Notes under the pieces: generated by a model
Databases searched by the model: none
What the model was told of the DNA's origin: nothing
Seen by the model: the letters and a program-made list of their open reading frames with translations, nothing else
Source: a virus
DNA length: 20,921 nt
IMG/VR virus record: IMGVR_UViG_3300009103_000182
Location: 1-20,921 of that record
Reading direction: 5' to 3' (one strand)
Made by a program: the position numbers and the translations under genes
In this document: positions 10,496-19,752 of the stretch, piece after piece
How positions within the stretch are numbered: position 1 is the first letter of the stretch
Layout of the letters: each line of letters starts with the position of its first letter

Positions 10496-10903
10496 ATGAC
10501 ACATCTAATAAATCTTAACAATTTCCTAAATAACGCAATCGGTTTCGAAAGTATTTTCGATAGATTTCACCGTTTGCCTGAAATAAACTCTGGTTTTCCA
10601 CACTATAATATAAAGAAAGCTGGTAAGGATAAATACGTCTTGGAAATGGCTGTAGCTGGTTACACAAAATCAGATATAGAAGTCCAGGTTCAAGATGGAG
10701 TTTTATCTATCAAAGGCAAATCTACTGAAGATGAAGAAGATTTTGTTCATAAAGGAATAGCAAAACGTGCCTTTAGCAAACAACTTCAATTGTCTGAATA
10801 CGTGGAATGTAAAGGTGCGAAGCTAGAAGATGGTATGTTGAAAGTGGAATTATTCTATAATCCACCAGAAAACAAAAAAGCGAAAGTTATAAAGATAGGT
10901 TAA
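10496..10903 (+). CDS. Small heat-shock protein, Hsp20 / IbpA-like
   Basis: Encodes 135 residues. An alpha-crystallin domain spans about 35-122: FPHYNIKK (34-41), DKYVLEMAVAGYTKSDIEV (45-63), GVLSIKGK (68-75), GIAKRAFSKQLQLSEYVE (87-104) and GAKLEDGMLKVEL (107-119). The bacterial IbpA signature is clear, and the C-terminal IKI (132-134) matches the I-x-I anchor used for oligomer assembly. It binds unfolding proteins without ATP. Phage Hsp20 genes are known in marine cyanophages, where a role in virion assembly or host stress is suspected but unproven. It has a strong AAGGAGGT (10485-10492) four bases or fewer from the ATG. Its stop is fused with that of the convergent SNF2 gene. No Shine-Dalgarno-masking thermometer is evident in the leader. 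Confidence 0.93.
   Translation: MTHLINLNNFLNNAIGFESIFDRFHRLPEINSGFPHYNIKKAGKDKYVLEMAVAGYTKSDIEVQVQDGVLSIKGKSTEDEEDFVHKGIAKRAFSKQLQLSEYVECKGAKLEDGMLKVELFYNPPENKKAKVIKIG
10900..10903. other. Shared convergent stop, TTAA
   Basis: The four-base palindrome TTAA provides the TAA of hsp20 on the + strand (10901-10903) and the TAA of the SNF2 gene on the - strand (10902-10900). There is therefore no intergenic terminator between the two convergent genes, and their transcripts probably overlap at the 3' ends. Confidence 0.9.
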
Positions 10904-12330
10904 ATCCAATCTTTTAATTCTTCACCCATCACTTCTGATGCAATATTGATTTTTTTGCGGAGAGCTTTAACGATTTTATTATCGACTGTATCTTCCGCAA
11001 TTAAATCAATATAAGTAACAGGTTTCTTTTGACCTATTCTATGTATTCTGTCTTGGGATTGTAGTCTTTTCTCTAGATCATAACCATTAGAATAATAAAT
11101 CATGTTCGACGCTGCAGTAAGCGTGATTCCATAACCACCTGTAGCTGGTGTACCTACAAAGTATTTAACTGCATCATCGTTTTGAAATTTTTCTATATTG
11201 TTTTGTCTTATATCTTTAGGTGTTAATCCATAATAATCAACCACTGATCCCGGACCATGGACCTTTTGGATTTCCTTTATTATTTTTTTAACATCATATT
11301 GATAGTGAGCCCATATAACAACCTTGCCTTCTATCTCATCTAAAACATTCATTAATTCATCTAATCTATTATTCTTTATATCTTGTACTGAACCATCATC
11401 TGCAGTGAAATGACCGCATGTAATTTGATGCAATCTCATTATTTGAGTAAGAGCAGTTTTAGTTGTAACAACTTTTCCGTTTAACATGGCAAGTGCCATC
11501 TTTTTCATTTGAGCATATAGCTCTTTTTGTTCTTTACTTAATTCAATTACTCTTTTCATAAAAGTTTTTTCAGGAAGATCTAAACAATCTTCCTTTAAAA
11601 CTCTATAAGAAAACGGTTTTAATTTCTCTGCGAGTTCATCAAGATGTCGAAATCTGGCCACAATTTGAACACTTCTTCCATAGAAGTTAGCTGTTTTCAT
11701 TTCAGCATACCTGTTTCTAAATGCATAGTAAGACGCAAAGTCTAAACAATAAGGATCTAAAAATTCACATTGACTATATAAATCTAATGGGTTTTTAGTA
11801 ACAGGAGAACCAGTCATAATTCTTCTATACTTAGCAAGTTTAGAAAGTCTTAAAATATTTTTAGTTCTTTTTGCTTTAGGATTTTTAATAGTAGTACTTT
11901 CATCTATTGCCATTAAAGTTCTATGTGATGATAAAAATTTAGATGCAAAATCTACACCTTTTTGAGTACTTAAAGCTTCAACATTCATAATTAAAATATG
12001 TAGAGCTGTTTCTATTTCAAACAAAGATTTTAATTTTTCTTGTTGTTTTTTAGATATATTTGGCTGCCATAAAATGGTCACATTTTCGACATGATCGACT
12101 AAATGTGCTGGTAATTCTTGCTTATACCACGTACCTACTACACCCTTTGGTGCTATAATTAAAGCACCATCAATTTTTCCATTGTCATAAAGCATAGACA
12201 TATTATCTATAAGAACTTTTGTTTTACCAGTTCCCATTTCCATAAAATATGCATAGACTTCTTTATTCCAAGAAATCTCAAGAGCATCAAGTTGATGCTT
12301 ATAAGGTTTTGTTTTAAATTTATAATTCAT
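10900..12330 (-). CDS. SNF2-family (DEAD/DEAH superfamily 2) ATPase/helicase
   Basis: Encodes 476 residues from the ATG at 12330. An upstream in-frame ATG at 12357 would give 485 residues, but it lies inside the -10 box of the promoter read on this strand and has no ribosome binding site; the 12330 start is preceded by purine-rich AGAAAGAAAA. Motifs: KPYKHQLDAL (about 8-17), Walker A MGTGKT (32-37), DEST box (143-146), TGSP (173-176), TPATGGYGITLTAAS near 388-402 and QSQDRIHRIGQ (424-434), the SNF2 motif VI. These enzymes use ATP to translocate on dsDNA and remodel protein-DNA complexes; phage members are often placed with replication or recombination genes. It is the only leftward gene in the window. 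The substrate is unknown. The family call is firm. Confidence 0.9.
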   Translation of the reverse strand: MNYKFKTKPYKHQLDALEISWNKEVYAYFMEMGTGKTKVLIDNMSMLYDNGKIDGALIIAPKGVVGTWYKQELPAHLVDHVENVTILWQPNISKKQQEKLKSLFEIETALHILIMNVEALSTQKGVDFASKFLSSHRTLMAIDESTTIKNPKAKRTKNILRLSKLAKYRRIMTGSPVTKNPLDLYSQCEFLDPYCLDFASYYAFRNRYAEMKTANFYGRSVQIVARFRHLDELAEKLKPFSYRVLKEDCLDLPEKTFMKRVIELSKEQKELYAQMKKMALAMLNGKVVTTKTALTQIMRLHQITCGHFTADDGSVQDIKNNRLDELMNVLDEIEGKVVIWAHYQYDVKKIIKEIQKVHGPGSVVDYYGLTPKDIRQNNIEKFQNDDAVKYFVGTPATGGYGITLTAASNMIYYSNGYDLEKRLQSQDRIHRIGQKKPVTYIDLIAEDTVDNKIVKALRKKINIASEVMGEELKDWI

Positions 12331-12350
12331 AATTTTTTCTTTCTGTAGTC

Positions 12351-12378
12351 TTGACATTATATTAAAAAAATATATAAG
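12351..12378 (+). promoter_or_regulatory. Rightward sigma70-like promoter for the replication module
   Basis: A perfect -35 (TTGACA, 12351-12356) and TATAAG (12373-12378) are separated by 16 bases. Transcription would begin near 12385, about three bases before the ATG at 12388, giving a leaderless or nearly leaderless mRNA. It overlaps the leftward promoter completely. Confidence 0.6.
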
Positions 12379-12382
12379 TCAA
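12356..12382 (-). promoter_or_regulatory. Leftward sigma70-like promoter for the SNF2 gene
   Basis: Read on the - strand, TTGACT (12382-12377) and a perfect TATAAT (12361-12356) are separated by 15 bases. Predicted transcription start is near 12349, inside the first codons of the longer frame, which supports translation from the ATG at 12330 after AGAAAGAAAA. The spacing is shorter than the ideal 17, which lowers confidence slightly. Confidence 0.6.
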
Positions 12383-12387
12383 TAGTA

Positions 12388-12744
12388 ATGAAAGCAGAAA
12401 ATATAGTTTATGTTATTCAAGAAATTGCAGGTACCAGAGTTGGTCGACCTAAAATAAATATATTAGGTGCATCTGAATATGGTGAATTTAAATTTTTACT
12501 TCCAGAACTTTCACAAATAATTTTTTCTCCTGGTCCACTTATATTTAAGTTAAGACAAGGGTTAAAAAATTTTAGTGAAAATGATTATTTACTTTTAACT
12601 GGAGATCCGGCAATCATTGGGGTTGCATGTTCTATTGTTAGTGATATAACAAATGGAAAATATAAATTATTAAAATGGGATCAACAAGAAAGAAAATATT
12701 ATCCAATTAAAATTAACTTGTATGAAAAAGGAGAAATAGAATAA
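12388..12744 (+). CDS. Uncharacterised early protein, first gene of the replication module
   Basis: Encodes 118 residues. I do not recognise an enzyme motif. The sequence is mixed alpha/beta: MKAENIVYVIQEIAGTRVGR at the start, a hydrophobic middle (LLPELSQIIFSPGPLIFKLRQGL, 37-59), then NDYLLLTGDPAIIGVACSIV (65-84) and KLLKWDQQERKYYPIKINL. The GDPAIIGVA ... LKWDxQxxxY pattern is, from memory, shared with other uncharacterised marine-phage proteins. No Shine-Dalgarno site precedes the ATG and no other Met follows nearby, so the start is firm; the promoter position implies leaderless translation. It overlaps the next gene (TAATG at 12742-12746). As first product of the operon it may act in early infection, an inference. 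Confidence 0.72.
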   Translation: MKAENIVYVIQEIAGTRVGRPKINILGASEYGEFKFLLPELSQIIFSPGPLIFKLRQGLKNFSENDYLLLTGDPAIIGVACSIVSDITNGKYKLLKWDQQERKYYPIKINLYEKGEIE

Positions 12745-13295
12745 TGACAATAGATTTTGAAAAAGATCAAGAAGAAGTTCTAACTAGAACTAAGGATATA
12801 AAATCTTTATCAGATCAAGTCCTAAAACTTAGGGACTTGGAAGCAGAAGTAAAGTCTGATGAAGAAAGAATAAAGACAAAACAAAAAGAGATTGCAAGAA
12901 TTTCAGAAGATGTAATTCCAACTATGTTATCAGAGATGGGATTATCTCAATTGAAGTTAGCTGATGGTTCATCAGTTGACGTTAAACCTTTCTATAATGC
13001 AAGTATCTCTGTTGCAAACAGAGAGAAAGCTTATAAATGGCTTCGGGACAATGGCCTAGGTGACATTATTAAAAATGATGTGACCGTTTCCTTTGGACGT
13101 AACGAAGATAACAAGGCGGTAGATTATGCTAACCTTGCGAAGAGTCAGGGGTTCGAACCAACACAAAAGTTGAAGGTAGAACCCATGACTTTAAAAGCGC
13201 TAGTCCGTGAGCGTATTGAGGCAGGTAAACAAATGCCAATGGATATTTTTAACGTGTACGTAGGAAACCGTACCAAATTAACAAAGAAACAATAA
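12744..13295 (+). CDS. Coiled-coil protein of the replication module, function unknown
   Basis: Encodes 183 residues. Residues 1-55 are charged and heptad-like (LRDLEAEVKSDEERIKTKQK), a clear coiled coil. The rest is globular: MLSEMGLSQLKLADGSSVDV (61-80), then NREKAYKWLRDNGLGDIIKN and a C-terminal segment, PMTLKALVRERIEAGKQMPM DIFNVYVGNRTKL, that I associate with conserved phage proteins of unknown role next to ssDNA-binding and primase genes. No nuclease or ATPase motif is seen. It is coupled to the gene before and separated by two bases from the gene after. The second half has a higher GC content than the first. A role in DNA replication or recombination is inferred from context only. Confidence 0.72.
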   Translation: MTIDFEKDQEEVLTRTKDIKSLSDQVLKLRDLEAEVKSDEERIKTKQKEIARISEDVIPTMLSEMGLSQLKLADGSSVDVKPFYNASISVANREKAYKWLRDNGLGDIIKNDVTVSFGRNEDNKAVDYANLAKSQGFEPTQKLKVEPMTLKALVRERIEAGKQMPMDIFNVYVGNRTKLTKKQ

Positions 13296-13297
13296 CT

Positions 13298-14086
13298 ATG
13301 AACAACGAAGCAAAAAACGAGCAAAATGCGGTTATCCCAAAGATAAACGCTAAGCTTCCATCAGCTACATTATTTGAAGATGATGCGAACGCTGGCTTTC
13401 AGTCAATGTCGCAAGACGATCTTGCATTACCATTTCTGAAAGTTTTAGGTCAGCTGTCTCCAGAAGTTAATACGAGACATGCTAAACATATCGAAGGTGC
13501 ACAACCTGGTATGATCTTGAATACTGTCACAAATGAACTTTATGATGGTACAAAAGGTATCCAAGTAATTCCGTGTTTCTATAAAAGAGAATACGTGGAA
13601 TGGAAGGATAGAGGAGAATCAATGGGCGCACCAGTAGCAGTACATGCTGTGGATTCTAAGGCAGTAGCATCAGCTAAAAGAGATGCTATGAATAAAGATA
13701 GATTACCAAATGGTAATTATATCGAGAATACCGCAAGTCACTTTGTAATGTTACTAGGCGATAATCCTAGCACAGCATTGATTACCATGAAGGCTACTCA
13801 ATTAAAGACTAGTCGTAAATGGAATACAATGATGATGGGTATCAAACTACAAGGTAAATCTGGTTTATTTACTCCACCAACATATAGTCATGTATATAAA
13901 TTGACTACTGTTCAACAGTCTAACGACAAAGGAACATGGTTTGGTTGGGATGTAGATAAAGTAGGTCCTGTACAAGATAGAGCGATCTATGATCAAGCTA
14001 AAGGTTTTTCTTTGAGTATATCAAAGGGAAACGTTCAAGCTAAACATGGATCCGATTCTGTTAACTCGGAGTCAACTCCTTACTAA
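13298..14086 (+). CDS. Conserved replication-module protein, candidate ssDNA-binding protein
   Basis: Encodes 262 residues. The N-terminus is polar; the core starts with DDLALPFLKVLGQLSPEVN (40-58) and GAQPGMILNTVTNELYDGTKGIQVIPCFYKREYVEW (about 67-102), a beta-rich block with aromatic residues, followed by HFVMLLGDNPSTALITMKATQLKTSRKW. The C-terminus is flexible, with Ser and Asp/Glu, and ends in Tyr. Proteins with the LPFLKVLGQLSPEV ... IPCFYKREYVEW pattern recur beside primase and polymerase genes in marine and other phages, where I suspect ssDNA binding through an OB-like fold. This is not demonstrated and the acidic tail is weaker than in T7 gp2.5. Another recombination cofactor remains possible. 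The gene is certain; function is low-confidence. Confidence 0.72.
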   Translation: MNNEAKNEQNAVIPKINAKLPSATLFEDDANAGFQSMSQDDLALPFLKVLGQLSPEVNTRHAKHIEGAQPGMILNTVTNELYDGTKGIQVIPCFYKREYVEWKDRGESMGAPVAVHAVDSKAVASAKRDAMNKDRLPNGNYIENTASHFVMLLGDNPSTALITMKATQLKTSRKWNTMMMGIKLQGKSGLFTPPTYSHVYKLTTVQQSNDKGTWFGWDVDKVGPVQDRAIYDQAKGFSLSISKGNVQAKHGSDSVNSESTPY

Positions 14087-14146
14087 GCAATTCCTAAGGG
14101 AATAAGTTGCAACAAGAGGCGTTGAAGCGAGAGTGGAGACGCCTCT
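14087..14146 (+). promoter_or_regulatory. Tandem RNA hairpins before the primase gene
   Basis: The 70-base gap 14087-14156 holds two hairpins. The first begins right after the previous stop: GCAA (14087-14090) pairs with TTGC (14107-14110) and TTCC (14091-14094) with GGAA (14099-14102), loop TAAG, with a second TAAG bulged on the 3' side. The second has a perfect eight-base stem, AGAGGCGT (14115-14122) with ACGCCTCT (14139-14146), and a 16-base purine-rich loop. Only a weak T-run follows. The second stem ends ten bases before the primase ATG, which has no Shine-Dalgarno site. Candidate attenuator, processing site or translational control element. Confidence 0.55.
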
Positions 14147-14156
14147 ACTTTAAGTT

Positions 14157-15656
14157 ATGACAGAATTTGAAAAGATATTTGACGGATTAAAGAGGGCTCA
14201 CGGATGTACCTATATTAACACTGCTCCAGCAAATGGAGAGAAGTTAAAAGGAAAATCTTTTGTAAAAAGAGAACCAGTTACATCGAGTCATTACGAAAAT
14301 CATATTAAAGGTGTAGAACCTACACTAGGTATCATTCCTATTAATGAAAACAATCAATGTATATGGGGATGTATTGATGTAGATTCATACGCAGGTTTTG
14401 ATCACAAAAAATTATTAGCTAAAATTAAAATTTTAAAATTACCATTAGTAGTATGTAGATCTAAAAGTGGTGGCGCACATATATTTTTATTCTCACAAAA
14501 ATTTATAGATGCAAAAATAATGAGAGACAAACTCTTAGAGATAAGAGCTATATTAGGTTTTGCTAATGCAGAGGTCTTTCCAAAACAAATAGAATTAAAA
14601 TCAGAAGAAGATACTGGAAACTTTTTAAACCTTCCTTATTTCAAAGGAGATAACACAACGAGATATGCATTCAAAGAGGATGGTGCAGCAGCAAGTTTAG
14701 AAGAATTTTATAGAATCATAAATAATGTAAAACAACTAGATGTTGGTTCTATAAAAGTGCAGAGGCCTGAATCAGAATTTTCTGATGGGCCTCCGTGCAT
14801 AGAAACATTAGCAGCCGGAGGAATAAAAGAAGGTGGAAGAAATGCTTCTTTATTTCATTTTGGAGTCTTTGCTAAAAAGAAATGGAAAGATTGGAAAGAA
14901 AAAATTTCTTGGTTCCACAGAGAATATATGGAAGGAGATTTAGATCAAAAAGAAATAGATATTATTAAATCACAAATAGAGAAAAAAGATTGGGGATATA
15001 AATGTAAAGATGAACCAATGTGTAGTCATTGTGATAAAACATTATGTAAGAGAAGAAAGTATGGAATAGGTGATGCACCAACATTTCCAGAGTTAAGTGA
15101 CTTACAAGAAATTCAATTAGAACATCCTTATTATTATTTAAACGTAGATGGTAAAAGATTAAGATTAGATAGTCCAAAACATTTAAGACAACAATCATTA
15201 TTTGAAGAAGCATGTATAGCAGGAGTAGGAATGTTACCACCAACTTTAAAAACTAAAGATTGGAAACAATTAATAAACGGTTTATTAGCAGGGAGAGAAG
15301 TAATAGATGCACCGGAAGGAATGAAAACAGAAGATCAATTAAGAGAACACTTAGAAGATTATTGTAGTGATAGAAGACAAACAAAAAGAAAAGAAGATAT
15401 TGAAAGAGGGAATGTTTGGAGTGATGATGAGAATCATTACTTTAAATTTAGACACTTCTTTCATGATCATTTACAAAGAAGAAGATGGTCTCATGACTAT
15501 CAAAAAACTTCAGCCTGGATGAAAGAGTGGTTTGATGCCAAGATTAAAGTAATAGATGCTAGTGGTAAGAGTATTAAAGTTATGTATGTTAAAAAATTTA
15601 ATAATACAAAAACAGAATTTAAATCACCAGGATATAAACCTAAGGACCCATATTAA
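14157..15656 (+). CDS. Archaeo-eukaryotic-type primase (TOTE-like primase domain with C-terminal Cys cluster)
   Basis: Encodes 499 residues. The N-terminal domain fits an archaeo-eukaryotic primase (AEP) core of the TOTE/phage type: IWGCIDVDSYAG (69-80) with the DxD metal ligands Asp74 and Asp76, VVCRSKSGGAHIFLF (98-112) with the SxxxH pattern (Ser104, His108), and AEVFPKQIEL ... GNFLNLPYF (138-162), the usual third region followed by TRYAF. Residues 221-260 (GGIKEGGRNASLFHFGVFAK) resemble a PriCT-type helical domain, and Cys283, Cys289, Cys292 and Cys297 could bind zinc. The C-terminal 190 residues are unassigned. It would make primers for the family A polymerase downstream. No ribosome binding site is visible; a stop sits two codons upstream in frame, so the ATG is firm. 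Confidence 0.82.
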   Translation: MTEFEKIFDGLKRAHGCTYINTAPANGEKLKGKSFVKREPVTSSHYENHIKGVEPTLGIIPINENNQCIWGCIDVDSYAGFDHKKLLAKIKILKLPLVVCRSKSGGAHIFLFSQKFIDAKIMRDKLLEIRAILGFANAEVFPKQIELKSEEDTGNFLNLPYFKGDNTTRYAFKEDGAAASLEEFYRIINNVKQLDVGSIKVQRPESEFSDGPPCIETLAAGGIKEGGRNASLFHFGVFAKKKWKDWKEKISWFHREYMEGDLDQKEIDIIKSQIEKKDWGYKCKDEPMCSHCDKTLCKRRKYGIGDAPTFPELSDLQEIQLEHPYYYLNVDGKRLRLDSPKHLRQQSLFEEACIAGVGMLPPTLKTKDWKQLINGLLAGREVIDAPEGMKTEDQLREHLEDYCSDRRQTKRKEDIERGNVWSDDENHYFKFRHFFHDHLQRRRWSHDYQKTSAWMKEWFDAKIKVIDASGKSIKVMYVKKFNNTKTEFKSPGYKPKDPY

Positions 15657-15856
15657 TGAAGTTAAGATGTTTTATTGAAAGTTTTATTGATGTAGGTAGT
15701 GGATTAATTTTAGCAATCTTAATTCAATTATATATATTTCCATTCTTTGGATTATACCCAACGATATGGGATAGCCTACATATAGCATTAATATTTACAG
15801 CAGTTTCCATTATTAGATCATCAATATGGAGACATTTTTTTGGAAGGGTTAAATGA
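15656..15856 (+). CDS. Two-span membrane protein, DUF7220-like
   Basis: Encodes 66 residues. The pattern ESFIDVGSGLILAILIQLYIFPFFGLYP (8-35) followed by LHIALIFTAVSIIRSSIWRHFF (41-62) matches the small phage membrane family known as DUF7220: an E-S-x-x-[DN] start, a Q-x-x-x-FP-x-FG loop and a closing FTxxSxxRSxxxRxxF helix. Two membrane helices at about 12-30 and 41-57 are separated by a short polar loop, with basic residues at the C-terminus. It is coupled on both sides: TAATG with the primase and ATGA with the helicase. Function is unknown; its repeated placement among phage replication genes could reflect tethering of replication to the inner membrane, which is speculation. Confidence 0.8.
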   Translation: MKLRCFIESFIDVGSGLILAILIQLYIFPFFGLYPTIWDSLHIALIFTAVSIIRSSIWRHFFGRVK

Positions 15857-17346
15857 AAACAATAGTATTAGGACCTCCAGGGACAGGGAAAACTCACACA
15901 TTACTTAATAAAGTTGATGATTATTTAAAAGAAACTGATCCAGATAGAATAGGATATTTCGCTTTTACTCAAAAAGCTGCATACGAAGCAAGGGATAGAG
16001 CAATGAAAAAATTTAATTTAACTGAGGATGATCTACCACACTTTAGAACTTTACATTCTCTAGCATTCAGAAGACTTGGTTTAAAAAAAGAAAATGTAAT
16101 GCAACCGTTTCATTATAGAGATTTAGGAGAAAAATTAAAACTTCCTCTTTCTGTTCCTACATGGGAACATGACGAAGGGAATGCATTCTTTACTTCTAAT
16201 AGTGAAGAATTAAGTATTATAGATAAAGCTAGACATAAGGAAATAACTGTGATGGAACAATATGATTTAGGAGAACACACGAAAGAAGTTTCTAGAGAAA
16301 AACTTATTATCTTGGACCAGGAAATAAAAAAATATAAAAAAGAATATGGTCTTATAGATTTTCATGACATGATTACAGAATTTATTAAGAGTGATAAGTG
16401 TCCTAAATTTGATGTAACATTTATAGATGAAGCACAAGATTTATCTAAAGTCCAATGGCAAATGGCTCATAATATTTGGGATAATACACAAGATTCTTTT
16501 GTTGCAGGAGATGATGATCAGGCAATTTTTAGATGGGCAGGAGCAGATGTGGATAGTTTTATTGCATTAGATGGTAAAATAAATCAGTTAATTCAATCGT
16601 TTAGAGTACCAGCTAAAATTCATAAATTAGCGGCCAATATTGTACATCGAATCTCAAAAAGAATCAATAAGAATTGGTTGCCTTCTCAACGTGAAGGAGA
16701 GATAAAATGGTATGATAGTTTTGATCAAATAAATTTAAAAGAAGGAAATTGGTTAGTATTAAGTAGGACTAATCATCAACTAAATGATATTGAAAAAGTT
16801 TTATATGAAGATGGAATGTATTTTAAAAATAGAAATAAAAGAAATTACGAAGCAGATTTATATCAAGCAATAACTGATTATGAAAATTTAAGAAAAGGTC
16901 AGTTGGTTCCATACAAAGCTATAGAAAAAATTTATAGTTATATGACACCAACACATAAAGATAAAAAAGGATTGTTAGGTATGGCAAAAGAATCTTTTTA
17001 TGGTATAGATGCATTAAAAAATAAGCATGGTTTAAAAACTGATAAAGTTTGGTACGAAGCTTTTGACGATGCACCATACAGGAGAGTAGAATATATTAGA
17101 TCAATGAAAAATAATAAAGAGAAATTAAATACAGATCCTAGAATTAATCTATCAACTATACACGGAGCTAAAGGTGGCGAGTCAGACAATGTTGTCTTAC
17201 TAACTGATCTAACAGAAAACACAATGAAGGGTTATGAAAATAATCCTGATGATGAAGAAAGATTGTTTTATGTTGGAGCGACAAGAACTAAAAAAACATT
17301 ACATATTATAAGACCTAAAGATAATTACAAAGGATATAGAATATGA
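15853..17346 (+). CDS. UvrD/Rep-like superfamily 1 DNA helicase
   Basis: Encodes 497 residues with a full set of SF1 motifs: Walker A GPPGTGKT (7-14), motif Ia AFTQKAAYEARDR (37-49), TLHSLAFRRL (66-75), Walker B FIDEAQDLSKVQWQM (190-204), motif III GDDDQAIFRWAGA (219-231), motif IV SFRVP (249-253), motif V STIHGAKGGESDNV (about 434-447) and motif VI FYVGATRTKK (about 471-480). The family translocates 3'-5' on ssDNA using ATP. At 497 residues it is shorter than cellular UvrD or Rep (about 700), mainly in the accessory subdomains. No DnaB/T7 gp4-type replicative helicase lies in the window, so this protein or the SNF2 protein may supply unwinding for phage replication. Starts at ATGA overlapping the previous gene. 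Confidence 0.93.
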   Translation: MKTIVLGPPGTGKTHTLLNKVDDYLKETDPDRIGYFAFTQKAAYEARDRAMKKFNLTEDDLPHFRTLHSLAFRRLGLKKENVMQPFHYRDLGEKLKLPLSVPTWEHDEGNAFFTSNSEELSIIDKARHKEITVMEQYDLGEHTKEVSREKLIILDQEIKKYKKEYGLIDFHDMITEFIKSDKCPKFDVTFIDEAQDLSKVQWQMAHNIWDNTQDSFVAGDDDQAIFRWAGADVDSFIALDGKINQLIQSFRVPAKIHKLAANIVHRISKRINKNWLPSQREGEIKWYDSFDQINLKEGNWLVLSRTNHQLNDIEKVLYEDGMYFKNRNKRNYEADLYQAITDYENLRKGQLVPYKAIEKIYSYMTPTHKDKKGLLGMAKESFYGIDALKNKHGLKTDKVWYEAFDDAPYRRVEYIRSMKNNKEKLNTDPRINLSTIHGAKGGESDNVVLLTDLTENTMKGYENNPDDEERLFYVGATRTKKTLHIIRPKDNYKGYRI

Positions 17347-17594
17347 GTGATGATATATATAAAAAGCAGGTAGGTGGGACCCACTATAAATCCATGGTTA
17401 TTCAGCCATCAGAATTTATTAACAGAAATAATATTCCGTTTGCTGAAGGGAATGCTATAAAATATTTATGTCGACACAAACAGAAGAATCAAAAACAAGA
17501 TCTATTAAAAGCAAAACATTATATAGATATGGCTATTGATAGAGATTATCCTGAACAAGAAAAGAAATCAAACTCCTGGGGAATAGTTGGATGA
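17343..17594 (+). CDS. DUF3310 protein (T7 gp1.7-like domain)
   Basis: Encodes 83 residues. The DUF3310 pattern is complete: GGTHYKSMVIQPSEFI (11-26), FAEGNAIKYLCRHKQKN (33-49) and DLLKAKHYIDMAID (53-66). This domain is also found at the C-terminus of T7 gp1.7, reported to act as a nucleotide kinase in dNTP metabolism. Whether the isolated domain phosphorylates nucleotides is not settled, so the family name is safer than the activity. There is no Walker A loop. It overlaps the helicase gene by ATGA and the nuclease gene at its 3' end by ATGA, within the replication operon. Confidence 0.9.
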   Translation: MSDDIYKKQVGGTHYKSMVIQPSEFINRNNIPFAEGNAIKYLCRHKQKNQKQDLLKAKHYIDMAIDRDYPEQEKKSNSWGIVG

Positions 17595-17902
17595 AATTAA
17601 ATCATTTAAAAGATTCTGCACGAATTGGCACTATTTATGAACATGAGGCAGTAAATCATTTTTTAAAAAAAGGGTGTCATGTTTTTAAAAATGTGTGTCA
17701 ACATGGACCTTTAGATATAGTCGTAGTATATCCAACTGGAGAAATTGAATTATTGGATATTAAAAAACGTTCAATAAGAAAAAGAGATAATTTACCTATT
17801 CATCGTTCTCTGACCGAGGAACAAAAAAAATTAAATGTCAGATTATTTTATATTGATGATGACTATGAAGGTCATTATCACCCACCTAAAGGAGTCAAAT
17901 GA
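17591..17902 (+). CDS. PD-(D/E)XK endonuclease, Holliday-junction-resolvase-like
   Basis: Encodes 103 residues. The fold signature is present: an N-terminal helix with Glu17 (RIGTIYEHEAVNHFLKKG), then CQHGPLDIVVV (36-46) with Asp42, and GEIELLDIKKRS (50-61) with Asp56 and Lys58, giving the E ... D ... DxK layout of PD-(D/E)XK nucleases; a Gln/Lys helix follows (EEQKKLNVRLFYID). Phage members at this position, next to polymerase, resolve branched DNA or degrade host DNA, like T7 gp3 in role but not necessarily in ancestry. Overlaps the DUF3310 gene and polymerase gene by four bases each. Small size fits a homodimer. Substrate specificity cannot be read. Confidence 0.8.
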   Translation: MKLNHLKDSARIGTIYEHEAVNHFLKKGCHVFKNVCQHGPLDIVVVYPTGEIELLDIKKRSIRKRDNLPIHRSLTEEQKKLNVRLFYIDDDYEGHYHPPKGVK

Positions 17903-19752
17903 TACAAGTACCACTATTTAAACCACAAACAGAATGGCTACCACCAGAAGATTTTCCCGATCTATCTAAATATAAAGAGATAGCAATCGACTTGGAAACA
18001 AAAGACCCAGACCTAATTAAGATGGGTTCAGGTTCAGTAGCTAAACGTGGATGTATTACAGGTATAGCAGTGGCTGTAGAAGGTTGGTCTGCTTATTATC
18101 CAGTGGCCCACGAAGGTGGTGGAAACATGGATAAAACAAGGGTTTTTGACTACTTTAGAAATATTCTAAAGAGCGATGCTACCAAGATATTTCATAATGC
18201 AATGTATGACGTGTGTTGGTTAAAAGCTGAGGGACTTGAAGTTAATGGTCCTATTGTTGATACAATGATAGCAACAGCATTAGTAGATGAGAACAGAAGG
18301 AAGTATGATTTAAATTCTTGTTCAAGAGAATACATTGGAACAGGTAAAGATGAAGCTGCATTATATGAAGCAGCAAAGTCATGGGGAGTTGATCCTAAAG
18401 CAGAAATGTACAAACTACCTGCTATGTATGTTGGAGCCTATGCAGAAAAAGATGCACAAATAACTTTAGAGTTATGGAAGTATTTAAAACAAGAAATAAT
18501 TAATCAAGATTTAAAATCTATCTTTTCATTAGAGACTGACTTATTTCCTTGCCTCGTTGATATGCGTTTTTTAGGAGTTCGTGTAGACGTAGAACAAGCT
18601 CACATATTAAAAGACAAATTACTTGAACAAGAAAAAGAATGCTTATTAAAAGTAAAAAAAGAAACATCAATAGATGTTCAAATATGGGCTGCACGTTCAA
18701 TAGCGAAAGTCTTTCAAAAACTTTCCCTACCATATGACTCAACCGAAAAAACAAATTCTCCATCATTTACTAAAAATTTTCTTCAGAATCACGCCCACCC
18801 ACTAGTGAAACTGATTGCCCGGGCTCGTGAAATTAATAAAGCCCATACCACTTTTATAGATACTATACTAAAACATTCACATAATGGAAGGATATATTCT
18901 GAAATAAATCAGCTTAGATCCGATAATGGTGGTACAGTAACGGGTAGATTTAGCTACTCAAATCCAAATTTACAACAAATTCCTGCACGAAACAAGGAAC
19001 TTGGACCTGCTATTAGGTCATTATTTATACCTGAAGAAGGGTGTAAATGGGGAGTATTTGATTATTCACAACAAGAACCTAGATTAGTTGTACACTACGC
19101 AGCGCTTCAGGGATTGTATGGAGTGAATGAAGTAGTTGATGCATACAAAGAAGGTGATGCAGACTTCCATAGTATCGTAGCTGATATGGCAGAGATACCT
19201 AGATCACAAGCTAAAACTATTAACCTTGGATTGTTCTATGGTATGGGTAAAAATAAATTACAGGCCGAACTTGGAGTAAGTAAAGATAAAGCTGATGAAC
19301 TATTTAAAAAATATCATCAACGTGTACCGTTCGTTAAACAGTTAATGGATAACGTAATGTACAGAGCCCAAGATGCTGGTCGAATCCGTACATTGCTAGG
19401 ACGAGCGTGTCGTTTCCCTTTATGGGAACCTGCTCAATTCGGGATACATAAAGCGTTGAGTCATGAAGAAGCACTCAGGGAACACGGACCGGGGATTAAA
19501 CGTGCTTATACATACAAAGCTTTAAATAGACTCATACAAGGATCAGCAGCAGATATGACTAAAAAAGCTATGTTAGAGCTTTATAAAGAAGGTATTATAC
19601 CACATATTCAAGTGCATGATGAGTTGGATATATCAGTAGAATCTGATATAATGGCGGCCAAAATAAAACAAATAATGGAAAGTGCTGTAACACTTGAAGT
19701 TCCTAATAAAATAGATTATGAATGTGGCAGCAATTGGGGTAATATAAAATGA
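17899..19752 (+). CDS. polA: Family A DNA polymerase with 3'-5' proofreading domain
   Basis: Encodes 617 residues. The proofreading exonuclease occupies about 25-200: ExoI AIDLETKDP (Asp31, Glu33), ExoII IFHNAMYDVCWL (Asp104) and ExoIII YAEKDAQITLELW (Tyr181, Asp185). Polymerase motifs: TGRFSYSNPNLQQIP (348-362), motif A VFDYSQQEPRL (Asp388), motif B RSQAKTINLGLFYGMG (Arg435, Lys439, Tyr447) and motif C IQVHDELDISV (Asp574, Glu575). All expected catalytic residues are present. There is no 5'-3' exonuclease domain, as in T7-type replicative enzymes. The residue aligned with E. coli Pol I Phe762 is Leu443, a variant common in marine phage enzymes. Coupled by ATGA to the nuclease upstream and a 33-aa membrane gene downstream. 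It is the likely replicase. Confidence 0.97.
   Translation: MIQVPLFKPQTEWLPPEDFPDLSKYKEIAIDLETKDPDLIKMGSGSVAKRGCITGIAVAVEGWSAYYPVAHEGGGNMDKTRVFDYFRNILKSDATKIFHNAMYDVCWLKAEGLEVNGPIVDTMIATALVDENRRKYDLNSCSREYIGTGKDEAALYEAAKSWGVDPKAEMYKLPAMYVGAYAEKDAQITLELWKYLKQEIINQDLKSIFSLETDLFPCLVDMRFLGVRVDVEQAHILKDKLLEQEKECLLKVKKETSIDVQIWAARSIAKVFQKLSLPYDSTEKTNSPSFTKNFLQNHAHPLVKLIARAREINKAHTTFIDTILKHSHNGRIYSEINQLRSDNGGTVTGRFSYSNPNLQQIPARNKELGPAIRSLFIPEEGCKWGVFDYSQQEPRLVVHYAALQGLYGVNEVVDAYKEGDADFHSIVADMAEIPRSQAKTINLGLFYGMGKNKLQAELGVSKDKADELFKKYHQRVPFVKQLMDNVMYRAQDAGRIRTLLGRACRFPLWEPAQFGIHKALSHEEALREHGPGIKRAYTYKALNRLIQGSAADMTKKAMLELYKEGIIPHIQVHDELDISVESDIMAAKIKQIMESAVTLEVPNKIDYECGSNWGNIK

Follow-up and report, generated by a model that had tools for sequence, protein, structure and literature searches.

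A 32-base segment lying between a leftwards-transcribed SNF2-family helicase gene and a rightwards-transcribed replication operon probably acts as a compact bidirectional sigma-70-type promoter, in which two interlocked divergent promoters would drive both transcription units. The segment is part of a virus record 20,921 bases long, analysed at its full length (the window), which resembles the phages that infect Pelagibacter, a marine bacterium. Its interpretation is drawn from sequence comparison with related phages, in which both sets of promoter boxes are conserved although the distance between them changes repeatedly.

Genome context

The SNF2 protein encoded in the window shares 62-64% identity with those of the cultured pelagiphage HTVC027P and the uncultured phage 023Pt_psg01, and from these relatives we infer that Pelagibacter is the host. 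The features of the junction are as follows (+, rightward; -, leftward).

10900..12330, - strand: SNF2-family helicase gene (PF00176), probable true start ATG at 12330 (MNYKFKT...)
12339..12344, - strand: Shine-Dalgarno-like AGAAAG upstream of SNF2, with GAAAG at this place in 167/168 relatives
12349, - strand: predicted leftward transcription start (A, 7 nt past the -10)
12351..12356, + strand: -35 box TTGACA of the putative rightward promoter, TTGAC kept in 155/159 sequences
12356..12361, - strand: -10 box TATAAT of the putative leftward promoter, with a short N15 spacer
12373..12378, + strand: -10 box TATAAG of the putative rightward promoter, N16 spacer, final T missing
12377..12382, - strand: -35 box TTGACT of the putative leftward promoter, GTCAA arm kept in 155/159 sequences
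12384..12387, + strand: predicted rightward transcription start, 6-9 nt past the -10 and 1-4 nt before the ATG
12388..12744, + strand: Pam3 gp32-like gene (PF23992), heading the rightward replication operon
12744..19752, + strand: remaining rightward module (gp33-like, gp34-like, AEP primase, UvrD helicase and DNA polymerase A genes)

The SNF2 start is placed at 12330, which is kept among relatives, and not at 12357, because the longer open reading frame would begin within the leftward -10. SNF2 is convergent with an Hsp20-family small heat-shock gene (10496-10903), and the primase of the replication operon (14157-15656) has an AEP domain of the type that takes its name from TOTE conflict systems (PF22548). 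No annotated regulator adjoins the locus in the window or in HTVC027P 1-50000, where most genes are of unknown function.

The element in the window

Re-reading of the sequence gives exactly the box letters, spacers and coordinates that an earlier note had reported at 12351-12382, where the arms of a TTGAC...GTCAA dyad mark the two ends. That note described the promoters as face-to-face, a term that normally denotes a convergent arrangement; both in fact point outward, and they are better described as a divergent, overlapping (interlocked) pair. Its observation that each -35 overlaps or abuts the opposite -10 holds, with position 12356 and positions 12377-12378 common to opposing boxes, and it holds likewise in the 33-34 nt classes of relatives described below. 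The window copy is two bases shorter than the commonest form among relatives and is one of the weaker copies; its rightward -10, TATAAG, is weaker than the TATATT or TATAAT of relatives, and with this box on one side and an N15 spacer on the other, one direction could be weak.

Taken by itself the window says little. By chance, the dyad on its own (TTGAC N15-30 GTCAA) would occur 0.22 times per window, and it is present in 20/100 shuffles; accompanied by a TATA core 15-18 nt from each -35, it arose in 2/1500 Markov simulations of the 20.9 kb window. A standard promoter scan requiring N16-18 and T at position 6 misses both box pairs, the rightward one for want of the final T in its -10 and the leftward one for its 15-nt spacer, and it returns 59 matches in the window against 82 in shuffled DNA. 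With so few matches and the site itself unlisted, a single sequence proves little, and it is the conservation in relatives that settles that the arrangement is not due to chance. A search of Rfam gave no match for the element.

Conservation among related phages

Two IMG/VR scans yielded 160 related loci, of which 158 hold both genes, and the SNF2 and gp32-like genes are divergent in all 158. The TTGAC...GTCAA element is present in 155 of 159 sequences (the window included) as 102 unique forms 32-38 nt long; these are not independent, grouping into 25 clusters at 80% identity. Of the unique forms, 97/102 have a TAT core 16-18 nt from the corresponding -35 on the right, 76/102 on the left and 74/102 on both sides, compared with 20, 21 and 4 (maximum 11) respectively when the interiors are shuffled. 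In the psg01 clade the dyad is present in 75/76 sequences. When this clade is included there are 142 unique elements, 104 of which match the sigma-70 consensus at 10/12 or better on both strands with spacing of 15-18, against a mean of 5.7 and a maximum of 14 for shuffled interiors, a scoring that presumes an E. coli-like sigma-70, from which Pelagibacter preferences may differ, and in which a match does not prove activity. At least 9/12 is reached by 140/142, and five elements reach 12/12 both ways. The commonest form has TTGACA-N17-TATATT on each strand and is closer to consensus than the window copy. With a strict E. coli -10 matrix, which penalises a missing final T, the signal is weaker but still clear, the weakening being due to the many -10s in the family that lack that base; by this matrix the best site in the 33-37 nt classes is often at other spacings.

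The element is also closely tied to this locus. Among the matches listed for a strict symmetric pattern in the viral collection, 113 loci adjoin both genes, five adjoin SNF2 and none lies elsewhere. A degenerate pattern was not informative in this respect: 22 of the 119 matches listed in viral contigs are at the SNF2/gp32-like locus, and most contexts lack these genes. The earlier note had proposed that two overlapping promoters serve SNF2 and the replication operon, and had staked this on neither box being lost in close relatives that keep the gene order; both boxes are kept in them, at the frequency given above, and the proposal is supported accordingly.

Spacing changes and alternative layouts

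The length of the element has changed at least 19 times on a quick LG+G4 tree of 88 SNF2 proteins, in which the lineage with separated promoters is scored as one further state. Despite these changes the distance between each -10 and its -35 stays at approximately 17 nt. Among elements of the 34-nt class, 30/30 have the TAT core at N17 on the right and 29/30 on the left, and in the 38-nt class, where the opposite arm is displaced by four bases, the core is still at N17 in 11/14 and 10/14 respectively. That N17 is kept in both classes shows that a -10 moves together with its own -35, and such compensated spacing fits a pair of predicted promoters and not a palindromic operator.

Other relatives have different layouts. 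In three loci (L119, L122 and L124) the two promoters are intact but separated by tens of bases without overlap; the leftward boxes are TTGACA-N17-TATATT and the rightward ones TTGACA-N16-TATATT. On the SNF2 tree L119 lies within a set of interlocked relatives, and we conclude that in its lineage the overlap was lost and neither promoter was. These three loci form a naturally occurring control with which the consequences of overlap could be judged. In L049, sequence added between the promoter and SNF2 reads as a small leftward cysteine-containing open reading frame, and the promoter is kept.

The HTVC027P clade (junctions L161/L162 and L290-L348) is divergent in 53/53 members and has the dyad in 0/53. 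In 31/36 of its unique sequences the rightward -35 is of the TTTACT type with N18, the leftward boxes are TTGACT-N17-TATATA, the -10s overlap, and the predicted starts are 21 nt apart. The junctions of HTVC023P and DSL-LC04 contain no dyad; a rightward promoter is plausible in each, whereas the leftward sequence is ambiguous.

Start codons and leaders

The GAAAG to the left of the element plausibly represents the Shine-Dalgarno site of SNF2. A GAAAG is also found to the right of it in 120/120 members of the window's group (12390-12394 in the window), where it lies inside the first gp32-like codons. In 88/120 of these relatives the first ATG is 6-9 nt past the rightward -10 (12384-12390 in the window), which is approximately at the expected transcription start, and in most of these phages the message of the replication operon is therefore predicted to have little or no leader. 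L066, L108 and the psg01 and HTVC027P types have instead a rightward leader with a Shine-Dalgarno-like site.

Proposed function and alternative interpretations

From the boxes, their spacing and their conservation we infer promoter activity, the start sites, use of the host sigma-70 and steric exclusion. The host sigma-70 holoenzyme would bind in one of two orientations and make one transcript at a time, leftward binding giving the SNF2 helicase transcript and rightward binding that of the replication operon. As the footprints coincide, the two bound states would exclude each other; that one polymerase blocks the other, as the earlier note held, is indicated by the geometry and by the literature on comparable promoters (PMC4207663, PMC12825309). 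The most likely role of the element would be to serve both units with the least possible intergenic DNA, each of them being expressed when averaged over time, and competition for occupancy would have at most a secondary effect on their ratio. HTVC027P does not encode its own RNA polymerase and uses the host enzyme throughout infection (PMC12753301); directional RNA-seq exists for this phage (PRJNA1253180), which has the overlapping -10 design.

The symmetry of the element could alternatively reflect an operator, in which a symmetric regulator binds the TTGAC...GTCAA dyad and the promoter boxes are incidental. The arms are indeed the most conserved letters, and the dyad reaches 11 bp per side in the 34-nt class. 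However, the distance between the arms varies from 32 to 38 nt, the -10s follow their own -35 and not the opposite arm, and complementarity past the arms is generally not above the level given by promoter letters and column composition (in the 37-nt class it is lower; the 33-nt class is a mixture of two subtypes). Both promoters are moreover kept without the dyad in the split lineage and the HTVC027P clade. On these grounds we regard a palindromic operator as very unlikely and reject it. An origin of replication, or an iteron site, is more improbable still: although the element is AT-rich and palindromic and adjoins the replication genes, our search revealed no iteron array, just scattered short two-copy matches, the skew change at 11-12 kb would fit the reversed gene, and the conserved letters are those of promoter hexamers at promoter spacing. 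This candidate was rejected for want of iterons. Somewhat less remote, but still quite improbable, is a single working promoter, the hexamers of the other being a by-product of symmetry or AT-richness. The window lends itself to such a reading, with a rightward -10 that lacks its final T and a leftward spacer of 15, as does L008, in which the rightward TTGAC has been lost; across relatives, however, both sides are above shuffles, and both promoters persist when separated in L119, L122 and L124.

The interlocked promoters were described in the earlier note as a switch that makes expression of SNF2 and of the replication module mutually exclusive or competitively balanced. This is unsupported, given near-symmetric promoters, no known regulator, one lineage without overlap and another design in the HTVC027P clade, the closest with a cultured member. 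A true switch, with the overlap selected and the two expression states exclusive or set in ratio by polymerase blocking, seems unlikely to us. It would accord with the retention of overlap in nearly all relatives, with the different form of overlap in the HTVC027P clade, where predicted starts are close together, and with plasmid pLS20, in which the Pc/Pr pair uses box-on-box geometry as one layer of a switch; competition could also be real in relatives with 12/12 matches both ways, which are where it would be worth testing. Against it, the part of PMC4207663 that cites Bendtsen et al. gives unequal basal strengths and a regulator with opposite effects as requirements of a switch; the two phage promoters are nearly symmetric and have no known regulator. 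In measurements on E. coli, competition is absent from bidirectional promoters of basal strength and appears only once one direction is strengthened (PMC12825309). The un-overlapped lineage is nested among interlocked ones, and compaction accounts for the overlap.

Relationship to known promoters

The closest likeness is to the divergent Pc/Pr promoters of the Bacillus subtilis plasmid pLS20, which are superimposed such that the -35 of each falls on the -10 of its partner, and of which polymerase occupies just one at once (PMC4207663). pLS20 differs in having one strong and one weak promoter, the regulator Rco with its operators, and DNA looping, whereas the phage promoters are both near-consensus and similar, have no known regulator, and serve helicase and replication genes. 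Hexamers at approximately 16-18 nt in an overlapping divergent sigma-70 pair are found across the phage family, the window copy being marginal (N16 and N15). There is also a likeness to the bidirectional promoters described by Warman, Grainger and colleagues in E. coli and other prokaryotes, in which pseudo-symmetrical DNA gives divergent transcripts and the polymerases are mutually exclusive (PMC12825309, PMC10268837). These have a shared -10 and starts 7-25 bp apart, 18 being the commonest distance (PMC10268837). The interlocked phage elements have separate -10s and predicted starts 36 nt apart in the window and 31-38 nt apart in relatives, so that the window lies outside this class; the HTVC027P clade, from its predicted starts, falls within it.

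The SNF2/gp01 junction of HTVC027P resembles that of the window in having the same divergent genes and promoter-like boxes both ways, but differs in its boxes (TTTACT-N18-TATAAT rightward and TTGACT-N17-TATATA leftward), its overlapping -10s and its lack of a dyad. The Pseudanabaena phage Pam3 has a homologous helicase-gp32-gp33-gp34 module in the same neighbourhood, but its helicase gene and gp32 are co-directional and a divergent promoter is therefore not needed. We found no description of an interlocked promoter for these phages in the literature searched, of which coverage was partial; the suggestion in the earlier note that the design had not been described thus stands for these phages within that literature but not for the geometry, which is known from pLS20 (PMC4207663).

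Significance

Divergent promoters that overlap are known, but few studies have dealt with them. Relatives of HTVC027P, which are abundant marine phages, provide a natural series in which the promoters are interlocked (in seven lengths), overlap at their -10s or are fully separated, and this makes the conditions for polymerase competition testable on short DNA fragments. There is a small chance that the overlap is itself selected, with steric competition fixing the ratio of SNF2 to replication proteins without a regulator and with a leaderless rightward message; if this were true, a single small element would govern how the replication operon is transcribed and translated throughout a major SAR11 phage group. 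As a probable bidirectional promoter, the element provides a landmark in a group of phages about whose regulation little has been described, and it would account for expression of the reversed helicase gene without extra intergenic DNA.
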